Origin: a virus
Length of the DNA stretch: 64,000 nucleotides
Reading direction: 5' to 3' (one strand)
Virus record (IMG/VR): IMGVR_UViG_3300043571_000279
Span: 1-64,000 of that record
Shown here: positions 964-58,449 of the stretch, piece after piece
Layout of the letters: every line of letters starts with the position of its first letter
How positions within the stretch are numbered: the stretch's first letter is position 1
Program-made: the position numbers and the translations under genes
The notes under the pieces: generated by a model
The model's database searches: none
What the model saw: only the letters and a program-made list of their open reading frames with translations
What the model was told of the DNA's origin: nothing

Positions 964-1576
964 ATAGTACCGATTGAGGCCCAACTTCAGTTTCAGCAAG
1001 ATAAGTAGTAACCTTACCTGATGTTTTAACTGAAGCGTCTTCAACTGTTGGAATCCAATAATCATAAGCAAAGTTTACAGTAAACTCTTCAATATTATTA
1101 CCAGAATCCCAACCTAGACCAATACCACTTAGCTGTGTTGGGAAAGCGCCCCAGAGCTGATATTCACGAAGGACATCGCCATCCTTACTATATTGTGTTA
1201 CGTCAATTAGTGTTTTATACTGTTCGGCAGAAGCAGTTGGAACACGAACGTTTGAAATTACAGTATTAATACCGTTTAGCCAAGCTTCGAACATTGAACG
1301 AACAGAGAAATCTTCATCGTTCATGACTGTTACTGACCAATCAGCATAAGTTCTTTCTCCAGCAACTTTAATCTTACGACCGAAATAAGGAATTTCGATG
1401 TTAGAAACAGTTGATTCAGGTAGTTCGGCTGCACGACATGTGAAAACGAACTTTCTGAAGGCTTCCGGATTTAACGGAATGCCAACTGGAGGAGCAACAT
1501 TAATTTGGAAGAGGGAGGGTCTAGCTCCACCATAAACTAGACCCTGTGCCTTAAATTGATTAATATTGAAAGCCAT
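962..1576 (-). CDS. 19: Tail tube protein gp19
   Basis: This is the major subunit of the inner tail tube, which polymerises on the gp48/gp54 baseplate cap inside the sheath. It is 204 residues, close to the usual length for T4-like gp19. The N-terminus MAFNINQFKAQGLVYGGARP and the C-terminal half, with the tube-fold signature LWGAFPTQLSGIGLGWDS...FTVNFAYDYW, are characteristic. A paralogous tube-fold protein is encoded at 49740-50432. The gene sits between sheath gp18 and portal gp20, as in T4. A good ribosome binding site (AAAGGAGT) precedes the ATG. Confidence 0.93.
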   Translation of the reverse strand: MAFNINQFKAQGLVYGGARPSLFQINVAPPVGIPLNPEAFRKFVFTCRAAELPESTVSNIEIPYFGRKIKVAGERTYADWSVTVMNDEDFSVRSMFEAWLNGINTVISNVRVPTASAEQYKTLIDVTQYSKDGDVLREYQLWGAFPTQLSGIGLGWDSGNNIEEFTVNFAYDYWIPTVEDASVKTSGKVTTYLAETEVGPQSVL

Positions 1577-49739: not shown

Positions 49740-50432
49740 ATGGCTTTTAACATAAACAAGTTTTCAACTAATATAAGAGATTTCGGATACCTAGATAATA
49801 ATTCTTTTGAGGTATTTGTTCAAACACCACCAGTTATGACGCAAAACGGTGGTGCTTTGGGCAATCAGGGCACTCCTGTTTCGTTAAAACAAATATCTGA
49901 AAATATGTCTTTCAGAGTTGATCAAGTCAGAGCTCCTGGTATTTCTCTTATTTCTTCAGACATCAATCATTACGGTATAGGTCCAACTCAAAAGAAACCA
50001 ACAAACGCCCAATATCAAGAAACTAATATTTCTATGATTGGTGATCATTTTTGCGAATTTTGGCAATATTGGTATCAATGGACTAGATCTATTTTCCAGT
50101 ATAGTGGAACTTCTACAGGTCAAGCGCCAACATATACAGCTGAATACAAAGATCAGTATTCATCAACAATAGTAATTGTAATTTACGATCATTATGGAAA
50201 CTCAATTCAGAAAATTAACTTATTTGAAGCGTTTCCGAGTGCATTAAGAGAAATACCGCTTTCATGGGGTGATGGTAATTTGATGAGAATTAATGTTTCT
50301 TTAGCTTATACTGAATATACAATTGAGGGTTCATCAATTTTAAGAACCAGATCGCAACCAGGTGGACTATCAACAGCAAAAGAACGAGAAACTATAGGTG
50401 TTGGTGTGGGATCATCACAATCAATATTTTAA
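49740..50432 (+). CDS. 54: Tail-tube initiator, gp54-like (tube-fold paralogue)
   Basis: A 230-aa protein of the tail-tube fold. It shares the start MAFNIN-F with gp19 and the C-terminal signature KINLFEAFPSALREIPLSWGDGNLMRINVSLAYTEYTIEG with the tube family; an extra region WQYWYQWTRSIFQYSG is typical of gp54. Gp54 binds gp48 on the baseplate and nucleates gp19 assembly. It is followed by gp26-like and tape-measure genes, matching the T4 25-26-51-27-28-29-48-54 functional group. It could instead be a second tube protein. Confidence 0.7.
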   Translation: MAFNINKFSTNIRDFGYLDNNSFEVFVQTPPVMTQNGGALGNQGTPVSLKQISENMSFRVDQVRAPGISLISSDINHYGIGPTQKKPTNAQYQETNISMIGDHFCEFWQYWYQWTRSIFQYSGTSTGQAPTYTAEYKDQYSSTIVIVIYDHYGNSIQKINLFEAFPSALREIPLSWGDGNLMRINVSLAYTEYTIEGSSILRTRSQPGGLSTAKERETIGVGVGSSQSIF

Positions 50433-57737: not shown

Positions 57738-57862
57738 CAACCCAATGAGGATTAAGCTGCTAGAGCGTAACCTTCAAATGATGCATCATTATCGTTTGCA
57801 TCTACGTTTCGCCTTTGGTCTCCTCGAAGCCTTAATGTAGATAATCGAGCCTATACACCCCC
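57725..57862 (-). ncRNA. ssrA: tmRNA coding piece (permuted ssrA): 5' acceptor strand, tag frame
   Basis: Starts GGGGGTG at 57862, which pairs with CACCTCC of the acceptor piece at 58383-58449 (7 bp, G3-U70 wobble = alanine identity). A D-arm-like region GGCTCGATTA follows, then a helix ATCTAC/GTAGAT enclosing the pre-tag region. The resume codon GCA at 57799-57797 opens a 15-residue tag ANDNDASFEGYALAA ending in TAA at 57754-57752. The tag has the universal ANDN start and the YALAA degron end. The 3' end is only estimated. tmRNA with SmpB rescues stalled ribosomes; no smpB is in the window. Confidence 0.93.
57752..57799 (-). other. tmRNA proteolysis-tag reading frame
   Basis: GCA AAC GAT AAT ... 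CTA GCA GCT TAA encodes ANDNDASFEGYALAA. No start codon or ribosome binding site precedes it, as expected for a tmRNA resume frame. The ANDN opening and -ALAA end match bacterial tags recognised by ClpXP/ClpAP-type proteases. Confidence 0.93.
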
Positions 57863-57863
57863 A

Positions 57864-58328
57864 TCATAAACTGACATATGGATTCGTTTTTTTCATAACA
57901 GATTTTAATCTACCACGAACCCAATCTTTAGGATAATCCTCTAAAGAGAACTGTCCTTCGGAAACGCCATCATTGAACCAATATCTCTTGTTTCTAATTT
58001 TTCTGCCATCTGTTCCTTTTTCATAAGGAGAAGGAACGCCTGATCTTATCCATTTACCAGTGGCAGATTTCTTACCATTTCCCCATCTAATAGCATTGGT
58101 TATTGCAGCGCCTTTTTTTGCTCCTTCACGAATTGCTATAAAAGTGCATTCGTCAGAAGTAAGAAGACCTAACAAACCTTTCCAAGCCAATAAATCTTGC
58201 CAGTGACCATGTGTTTCATATAAAACTCTATGGGCTTCGGCATGTTCTTCAATAGTAAGTTCTATCAAGTTATTTGGTTCATCTGTTCCGCCTAAATGTT
58301 TGGGAACAATATGATGTATGTGTTTCAT
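57864..58328 (-). CDS. HNH homing endonuclease inside the tmRNA intervening sequence
   Basis: A 154-aa protein. The N-terminal HNH finger is HIHHIVPKHLGGTDEPNNLIELTIEEHAEAHRVLYE (HH...N...H pattern of phage HNH homing enzymes). A basic middle part (GAKKGAAITNAIRWGNGKKSATGKW) precedes a C-terminal module RYWFNDGVSEGQFSLEDYPKDWVRGRLKS that is also found at the end of the GIY-YIG protein at 20260-21006. ATG 58328 has a near-perfect ribosome binding site AGGAGG. The stop codon ends one base before the first G of the tmRNA coding piece, and the promoter hairpin starts just after the acceptor CCA, so the gene fills the intervening sequence almost exactly. Confidence 0.92.
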   Translation of the reverse strand: MKHIHHIVPKHLGGTDEPNNLIELTIEEHAEAHRVLYETHGHWQDLLAWKGLLGLLTSDECTFIAIREGAKKGAAITNAIRWGNGKKSATGKWIRSGVPSPYEKGTDGRKIRNKRYWFNDGVSEGQFSLEDYPKDWVRGRLKSVMKKTNPYVSL

Positions 58329-58333
58329 TTAAT

Positions 58334-58369
58334 CCTCCTGTCAATCATACTTATTTATAATAGACAGGA
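58334..58369 (-). promoter_or_regulatory. Late promoter TATAAATA inside an RBS-sequestering hairpin
   Basis: TCCTGTC (58369-58363) and GACAGGA (58342-58336) form a perfect 7-bp stem. Its 20-nt loop contains a perfect TATAAATA (58359-58352). The 3' arm overlaps the AGGAGG ribosome binding site (58339-58334). Late RNA starting near 58346 lacks the 5' arm and is translatable; read-through tmRNA precursor is not. Confidence 0.8.
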
Positions 58370-58382
58370 TTTTATCAGTTTA

Positions 58383-58449
58383 TGGTGGAGGTGAGGGGAT
58401 TCGCACCCCTGTCTTACCAACCTATATGCTAAGTCTCAACGACCTCGGC
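58383..58449 (-). ncRNA. ssrA: tmRNA acceptor piece (permuted ssrA): T-arm, 3' acceptor strand, CCA
   Basis: Begins about 58449 (GCCGAGGTCG), 7 nt after an AATAAATA promoter box. CTTAGCATATAG is followed by TTGGTAA-GAC (P2-like strand, which can pair with TTATC of the coding piece), the T-arm AGGGG-TGCGAAT-CCCCT, the acceptor strand CACCTCC, discriminator A and encoded CCA (58385-58383). No anticodon arm exists, which excludes an ordinary tRNA. The T-loop has G instead of U at position 55. In permuted tmRNA genes the acceptor piece precedes the coding piece, as here. Confidence 0.92.

Follow-up and report, generated by a model that had tools for sequence, protein, structure and literature searches.

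A 520-nt insert in the permuted tmRNA gene (ssrA) of a virus that we take to be a T4-like myovirus is likely an HNH homing element specialised on the ssrA genes of T4-like phages, with RNA processing replacing splicing. The insert fills the intervening sequence (IVS) between the two RNA pieces of the gene. The sequence evidence for this reading consists of the position of the insert, an intact tmRNA around it, a stem between the IVS ends, a leader motif with a predicted hairpin, membership of a single HNH clade, a scattered distribution of occupied genes and the existence of empty counterparts.

The tmRNA gene of the window and its insert

The window, that is, the whole stretch of 64,000 nt analysed here, comes from a virus record of 68,719 bases. 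A permuted tmRNA gene lies at 57752-58444 on the minus strand, where Rfam cmscan matches RF04321 (tmRNA_permuted) across the long insert with 52.8 bits, compared with a gathering score of 47. We take the virus to be T4-like from the PHROG families matched by its tail sheath, terminase large subunit, baseplate and single-strand DNA-binding proteins. Two regions, 965-1576 (-) and 49740-50429 (+), are different genes, yet each matches the tail tube family phrog_45.

A sequence-only reading of the window had proposed an HNH gene filling the IVS of a tmRNA gene, and this is confirmed by the Rfam match, the ORF map and the relatives described below. Its further statements, an IVS of 520 nt, a protein of 154 aa and a stop codon one base short of the mature 5′ end, also hold on the sequence coordinates (Table 1). 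The single base between the HNH stop and the mature 5′ end is 57863. From the mature 5′ end at 57862, GGGGGTG pairs at 7/7 positions with the acceptor strand and includes G3.U70; this pair is the identity pair of alanyl-tRNA synthetase. With its seven acceptor pairs, G3.U70 and the tag ANDNDASFEGYALAA, the tmRNA appears intact, as inferred from its sequence; the presence of two mature RNA pieces in the cell is likewise an inference.

Table 1. Features of the occupied tmRNA gene in the window
Feature	Position	Strand	Basis
tmRNA acceptor piece (Rfam-matched part), with T-arm	58383..58444	-	RF04321, sequence, detector
Acceptor strand CACCTCC	58393-58387	-	Sequence
Encoded CCA	58385-58383	-	Sequence
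IVS, 520 nt	57863..58382	-	Sequence, detector; excision inferred from known permuted-tmRNA maturation (PMC11915505)
IVS end stem, 5′ strand TAAACTGATA, 10 bp	58373..58382	-	Stem test with swapped-partner control
Leader hairpin overlapping the HNH RBS	58336..58369	-	Predicted; MFE (leader + 15 nt) -15.1, z -3.9 against 100 letter shuffles
TATAAATA inside the hairpin	58352..58359	-	Identical to what we take to be the T4 late-promoter consensus, TATAAATA
AGGAGG, RBS of the HNH gene	58334..58339	-	Sequence
HNH endonuclease gene, 154 aa; stop TGA 57866-57864	57864..58328	-	ORF map, profile matches, alignment
IVS end stem, 3′ strand, formed by the final sense codons of the HNH gene	57867..57876	-	Stem test
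tmRNA coding piece, mature 5′ end to tag stop	57752..57862	-	RF04321 match
Conserved coding-piece region, +8 to +25 from mature 5′ end	57838..57855	-	Proposed recognition region of ssrA-linked HNHs, inferred
Tag frame ANDNDASFEGYALAA + stop	57752..57799	-	Sequence

The same arrangement, with an IVS of 520 nt, is found in four IMG/VR contigs from other data sets (L002-L005). Chance or assembly error was rejected on the basis of these copies, the lack of hits of our permuted-tmRNA detector in shuffled sequence and the presence of HNH relatives in the IVSs of 19 other tmRNA genes, all distinct. The idea that the HNH gene is embedded in a group I intron or an intein was also rejected, as there is no Rfam intron match in the window; the only Rfam families above cut-off there are tRNA and tmRNA_permuted, and no self-splicing intron around the ORF was found. 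tmRNA genes with a long IVS are easily overlooked. ARAGORN, run on the window, did not report the tmRNA at 57752-58444, and a genome search with RF04321 returned 57752-57912 only, below cut-off. Therefore, occupied ssrA genes may be under-annotated.

The IVS holds no other ORF of at least 60 aa, the runner-up being a 48-aa frame on the opposite strand. The window protein matches phrog_655 (homing endonuclease; E 6.8e-14), PDB 6me0 (the C-terminal part of a maturase reverse transcriptase; 8.5e-6) and PF01844 (E 3.7e-4), the last with 21.0 bits, slightly below the cut-off of 21.4. Its HNH motif is N-terminal, and H5, H6, N20, H29 and H33 are invariant in an 18-sequence alignment. A Foldseek search of the PDB with a model of the protein (mean pLDDT 76.7, C-terminal half poor) gave nothing at E 0.001. 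Third codon positions hold most of the differences between HNH genes over the first 210 nt (23/38, 28/49, 29/54 and 24/43 in four pairs), and the codons appear to be under purifying selection, an inference from sequence.

Occupied and empty tmRNA genes in other phages

Relatives of the HNH protein were collected from IMG/VR as 27 loci found with the window protein and the best 80 of at least 482 found with a four-sequence alignment. An HNH gene lies in the IVS of 20 distinct phage tmRNA genes: that of the window (same in L002-L005), L008, L009, L152 (also L153), L155 (also L156-L159), L160, L161, L162, L163 (also L164), L165 (near-copy L166), L167, L168 (also L170), L169, L171 (also L173), L172, L174, L176, L177, L183 and L193. 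The detector placed 15 of these, Rfam placed L160 and L176, and L165, L171 and L177, which fall below the Rfam cut-off, were placed by eye; acceptor pairing and tag were checked for all five genes that the detector missed. Rfam was run on 9, 20, 20 and 20 source sequences (two twice), and the remaining HNH loci were seen by the detector alone. Run on 2.93 Mb of shuffled sequence, one version of the detector returned no hits.

In all 20 occupied tmRNAs the acceptor stem pairs at 7/7 positions, G3.U70 is present and the tag ends in AA, although their acceptor sequences and tags vary widely. In addition, a close HNH relative (70%, tblastn) in L007 lies directly 5′ of a tmRNA whose IVS is 67 nt. 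The usual form of the T-loop is TTCRANT, from which many permuted tmRNAs of phages depart; we observed GGCAGTA in L008, L162, L169, L172 and L183, GGCGGTA in L168 and GGCAGTT in L152.

Occupation is rare in samples not picked by HNH, being found in 1/58 and 0/96 distinct tmRNAs. In a sample drawn by T-arm pattern, the detector found a permuted tmRNA in 65/120 loci (58 distinct), with IVSs of 3-175 nt except for the 520 nt of the window's phage. In a sample drawn by GGCAGTA it found one in 97/120 loci (96 distinct), with IVSs of 4-266 nt and no HNH. The GGCAGTA loci number at least 120, and the counts are those of samples. HNH motifs sought up to 1.5 kb after the T-arm in the 120 GGCAGTA loci were absent. 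Among relatives found via a neighbouring gene (best 80 of 356 kept), 2/15 have an occupied IVS. These rates may be underestimates because the detector missed 5/20 known occupied genes.

The ends of the IVS pair with each other in occupied genes, by 10.2 bp on average compared with 5.05 when partners are swapped (0/2000 as high) and 3.97 for shuffled letters; L161 (3 bp) and L165 (6 bp) have no clear end stem under the test used. In 62 empty IVSs of 45-199 nt the ends pair likewise (10.16 bp, against 5.12 when swapped), and thus an end stem is normal in these precursors, with occupied genes supplying the 3′ strand from the end of the nuclease gene. TGAT stands immediately before the mature 5′ end in 52/62 empty IVSs and 16/20 occupied ones, and the ORF stop falls one base before it in 10/15 detector-found genes, the window's included. 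The HNH ORF extends into the mature coding piece in four of those 15 (L009, L161, L174 and L183) as well as in L165, L176 and L177. The claim that the insert disturbs neither RNA piece is therefore too simple, as the 3′ end of the ORF is a strand of the end stem and the ORF enters the coding piece in some genes.

The leaders of the HNH genes carry T4-type late-promoter motifs. TAAATA occurs within the first 75 nt of the IVS in 18/20 genes and TATAAATA in 13/20, compared with contig baselines per 60 nt of 0.028 and 0.0038, respectively. In all 18 TAAATA leaders the motif lies inside a predicted hairpin that adjoins or covers the RBS. The RBS is predicted to be mostly paired (open probability at most 0.40; window 0.33) in 16 of these 18, and mostly open on the long leader in L177 (0.75) and L183 (0.61). 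Neither a late-promoter motif nor a hairpin was found in the leaders of L155 and L160. For the window, the predicted open probability of the RBS rises from 0.33 to 0.93 with a transcript starting just after the motif, the start site being assumed. The leader thus has the features of a T4-type late promoter within a hairpin that hides the RBS, as inferred from sequence and predicted by the folding model.

Other, non-HNH ORFs were observed in phage IVSs. In L371, L443, L406, L435, L449, L378, L437, L424, L343, L377 and L418, a large part of the IVS is occupied by an ORF of 44-77 aa, whose end coincides with, or lies close to, the 3′ end of the IVS. Differences between homologous ORFs of this kind lie mainly at third positions (29/42 for L371/L443 and 17/28 for L449/L406), and therefore the IVS may be a general gene pocket. 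The small proteins gave no PHROG match (nine proteins searched) and no Pfam match (five searched). In L056 and L123 a related ORF of 57-58 aa with CxC and CxxC cysteines crosses from the IVS into the coding piece; it has no Pfam match, and we take it to be reminiscent of a small ferredoxin.

Distribution of the element among ssrA genes

A tree of 78 HNH proteins unites those from the 20 IVSs and that of L007 in a single starred clade (96/83), and 0/500 label shuffles were equally clustered. L006 was excluded, being partial and having an ORF without the HNH motif. All 21 members of the clade are located in or directly beside ssrA. An HNH gene unlinked to tmRNA in all relatives would have refuted the idea of an ssrA-directed element, and this is not what is observed. 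In the sister group (L175, L180, L192 and L226), Rfam found no tmRNA in the stretches examined.

In a tree of 95 tmRNAs (20 occupied and 75 empty), the occupied genes are scattered, the state switching 16 times and starred branches forcing at least 9 of these changes. The labels are almost random in their mixing (16 changes compared with a shuffled mean of 18.5; 27/500 shuffles as low). Label shuffles overstate certainty, however, because the rows are related. Moreover, identity of the IVS and identity of the coding piece are uncorrelated over the 190 pairs of occupied genes (r = 0.04), the IVS being more alike in 108; on this measure unrelated downstream DNA gives approximately 0.5. For L169 and L171, identity is 0.79 in the IVS, 0.63 in the coding piece and 0.53 downstream. 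L161 and L008 join L167 in a starred group of the tmRNA tree (100/95), yet their HNHs are of the other subfamily. The two trees agree for L009/L174 and L176/L177, and therefore part of the pattern is vertical.

Empty counterparts were sought in related phages and found. The closest pair of occupied and empty genes is L170 (IVS 514 nt) and L244 (IVS 95 nt), which are identical at 99/106 aligned positions on the acceptor side and 161/173 on the coding side; the two IVSs do not match. When its own copies are set aside, the window's phage is closest by a neighbouring gene to L230-L232, which show 87% identity and have an IVS of 93 nt. These two cases (L170/L244 and window/L230), together with the scatter on the tmRNA tree, show presence and absence at one site in related genomes. 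Taken together, the pattern is likely that of an element moving between ssrA genes and not of simple descent, although vertical descent with many losses cannot be fully excluded. The core of the sequence-only reading, a mobile endonuclease that uses the IVS as a safe site and spreads among ssrA genes, is thus supported by the single clade, the scatter, the decoupling of IVS and coding piece and the empty counterparts, with cleavage and cut site inferred.

That reading had also allowed for spread to host ssrA genes, which was not seen in one scan of bacterial and archaeal genomes. Of 193 pattern-matched stretches in these genomes, five encode a relative, N-terminal only (longest residues 1-95), and the detector found no permuted tmRNA in them. 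In isolated phages, 69 of 50,697 records have an HNH match, with up to 52% identity over residues 1-87 and higher identity solely over shorter stretches (62% over 45 residues); query coverage reaches 80% or more in six records, whose identity is 29-34%. With no close full-length relative among the 50,697, all sightings of the element in the searched collections come from uncultured phages.

The T4 endonuclease I-TevI has a late promoter in an RBS-hiding hairpin, an ORF whose 3′ end contributes to intron structure and an operator that resembles its homing site (PMC2988022). In light of this operator, we compared HNH leaders with ssrA, using a 16-nt matrix (consensus CATAGGTTCGACAGGG) derived from the stretch that immediately follows the mature 5′ end in empty tmRNAs (49 distinct segments) and a threshold of z >= 2 against 60 letter shuffles. 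The ssrA motif passes in 11/18 IVS leaders (mean 8.1, shuffled -2.6), in the one L007 leader (1/1) and in 11/11 leaders of a class lying antisense to ssrA sequence (mean 13.5, shuffled -1.9), compared with 0/45 leaders of other HNHs (mean -2.7, shuffled -1.2). The seven IVS leaders under z 2 include that of the window (-0.9). Rows within a clade are kin, and therefore these represent two or so independent cases, not 22. A better fit of each leader to its own tmRNA than to swapped ones was unsupported (677/5000 swaps as high). Our interpretation, inferred from sequence alone and with the homing site itself unidentified, is that the motif is an operator that was copied from the DNA target or matches it; alternatively, the motif could be a relic of the origin of the element.

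The antisense class is a second HNH clade (L178, L181, L196, L197, L199, L203, L204, L215 and L220). In 9/11 members, as judged by eye, the HNH 3′ end directly adjoins part of a tmRNA gene. In seven closely related members the abutting acceptor piece is broken in the T-loop after GTTCGA, and in L181 the abutting piece comprises the acceptor piece, the IVS and the first 7 nt of the coding piece. In L178 and L181, moreover, the HNH 5′ end is flanked by a complete tmRNA. Possibly these represent insertion into ssrA with a replacement copy, which we infer by eye. The single origin of the clade is not independent evidence, because the label was partly assigned from the C-terminal type. Further HNHs outside the IVS clade were observed near permuted tmRNAs: those of L009 (1840-2280, -) and of a minus-strand ORF in L177 are related and lie antisense after the tmRNA, and that of L216 (1695-2333, +) lies directly 5′ of it. 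L216, L184 and the second HNHs of L009 and L177 are near tmRNA and were labelled "other".

Mechanism, rival explanations and known systems

The element takes the place of the short IVS in a permuted tmRNA gene. Since the IVS leaves the precursor anyway during maturation (tRNA-type processing), the element can do without a self-splicing intron or an intein; removal by the tmRNA maturation enzymes is inferred. The RNA gene would be kept working by a rebuilt IVS end stem whose 3′ strand is the end of the element's own ORF. Translation of the HNH protein would probably be late, from a T4-type late promoter lying within a hairpin that hides the RBS on read-through precursor. We infer that the protein binds the coding piece near +8 to +25. 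In a mixed infection, the enzyme would probably cut an ssrA gene with a foreign IVS at or near the junction of IVS and coding piece, and repair would then copy the whole IVS into the cut allele. Self-protection would come from the altered IVS side of the site. The timing of transcription and translation, cleavage, the cut site and copying are thus all inferred.

Several rival explanations were considered. An ancient ssrA HNH gene could have been inherited vertically with many losses, its enzyme no longer mobile. This is favoured by the pairing of L009/L174 and L176/L177 on both trees and by the ease of loss, as counts of changes cannot separate gain from loss. However, the lack of correlation over 190 pairs, the grouping of L161 and L008 with L167 on the tmRNA tree (100/95) despite HNHs of the other subfamily and the apparent purifying selection on HNH codons make it unlikely. 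Less likely still is that an ordinary free-standing HNH gene landed in non-coding DNA and that the ssrA site is meaningless. Phage HNHs with a related N-terminal domain are common elsewhere, and other HNHs do lie near tmRNA genes, but against this stand the location of 21/21 clade members at ssrA, the precise boundaries and the absence of the leader ssrA motif from all 45 other HNHs.

It is also very unlikely that the phage has recruited the nuclease and retains it for a benefit, such as cutting host or rival-phage ssrA or affecting the maturation of tmRNA, and not as a selfish gene. Phage homing endonucleases can exclude rivals, and both the third-position bias and the small non-HNH ORFs of other IVSs fit a pocket for useful cargo. 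Patchy presence and independence from the tmRNA lineage nevertheless favour mobility, and the two can coexist. A tmRNA that is a dead remnant, with the HNH gene in a pseudogene, would accord with the unusual T-loops (GGCAGTA) at some loci. This is all but excluded by the full acceptor stem, G3.U70 and tag in 20/20 genes, and the GGCAGTA T-loop also occurs in short-IVS permuted phage tmRNAs (97/120 loci).

In the literature searched, which was mostly open-access, we found no permuted tmRNA reported to carry an HNH gene in its IVS, and within this scope the claim that no example had been described holds. Two-piece tmRNAs are known in aquatic phages, e.g. phage Melnitz (PMC9004378), and the permuted tmRNAs of bacteria and phages (RF04321) share the RNA architecture seen here; no HNH in the IVS is mentioned for Melnitz in the relevant sections of that paper. 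The unusual IVS contents named elsewhere are a repetitive element and tRNA-Ala (PMC11915505). The endonuclease genes described for ssrA in PMC11915505 belong to the LAGLIDADG family and are carried by group I introns situated in the T-loop of the tmRNA gene. Like the present gene they lie within ssrA and are removed from the RNA, but nuclease family and site differ and splicing is required, and the relevant sections mention no endonuclease gene in a permuted IVS.

The leader layout has parallels among T4 endonucleases. As with I-TevI, the ORF lies in a segment removed from the RNA and has a promoter (late for I-TevI) and an RBS-hiding hairpin. In contrast to I-TevI, there is no ribozyme, removal is via tmRNA maturation, no ligation follows and the host gene is a split RNA; moreover, the nuclease is HNH and not GIY-YIG (I-TevIII is HNH). 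T4 segB and Aeh1 mobE (PMC2988022) are likewise small phage homing endonuclease genes without an intron and with a similar promoter/RBS hairpin layout, and segB sits between tRNA genes. However, these lie between genes, whereas the window's HNH gene is inside one RNA gene, between its two pieces.

A bolder reading is that the IVS of permuted ssrA is a third sheltered niche beside introns and inteins and a wider phage gene pocket, in which a dedicated HNH clade binds ssrA approximately 8-25 nt past the mature 5′ end, represses itself via the leader copy, cleaves alleles whose IVS is foreign, swaps the whole IVS and encodes a maturation stem in its last codons. Taken as one joint claim, this could as easily fail as hold. 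As the leader motif predicts a DNA target, the idea is directly testable. Homing endonucleases need harmless sites, and a segment discarded by tRNA-type processing is such a site without splicing machinery. That one specialised clade resides in this segment suggests that maturation, and not splicing alone, can shelter selfish genes.
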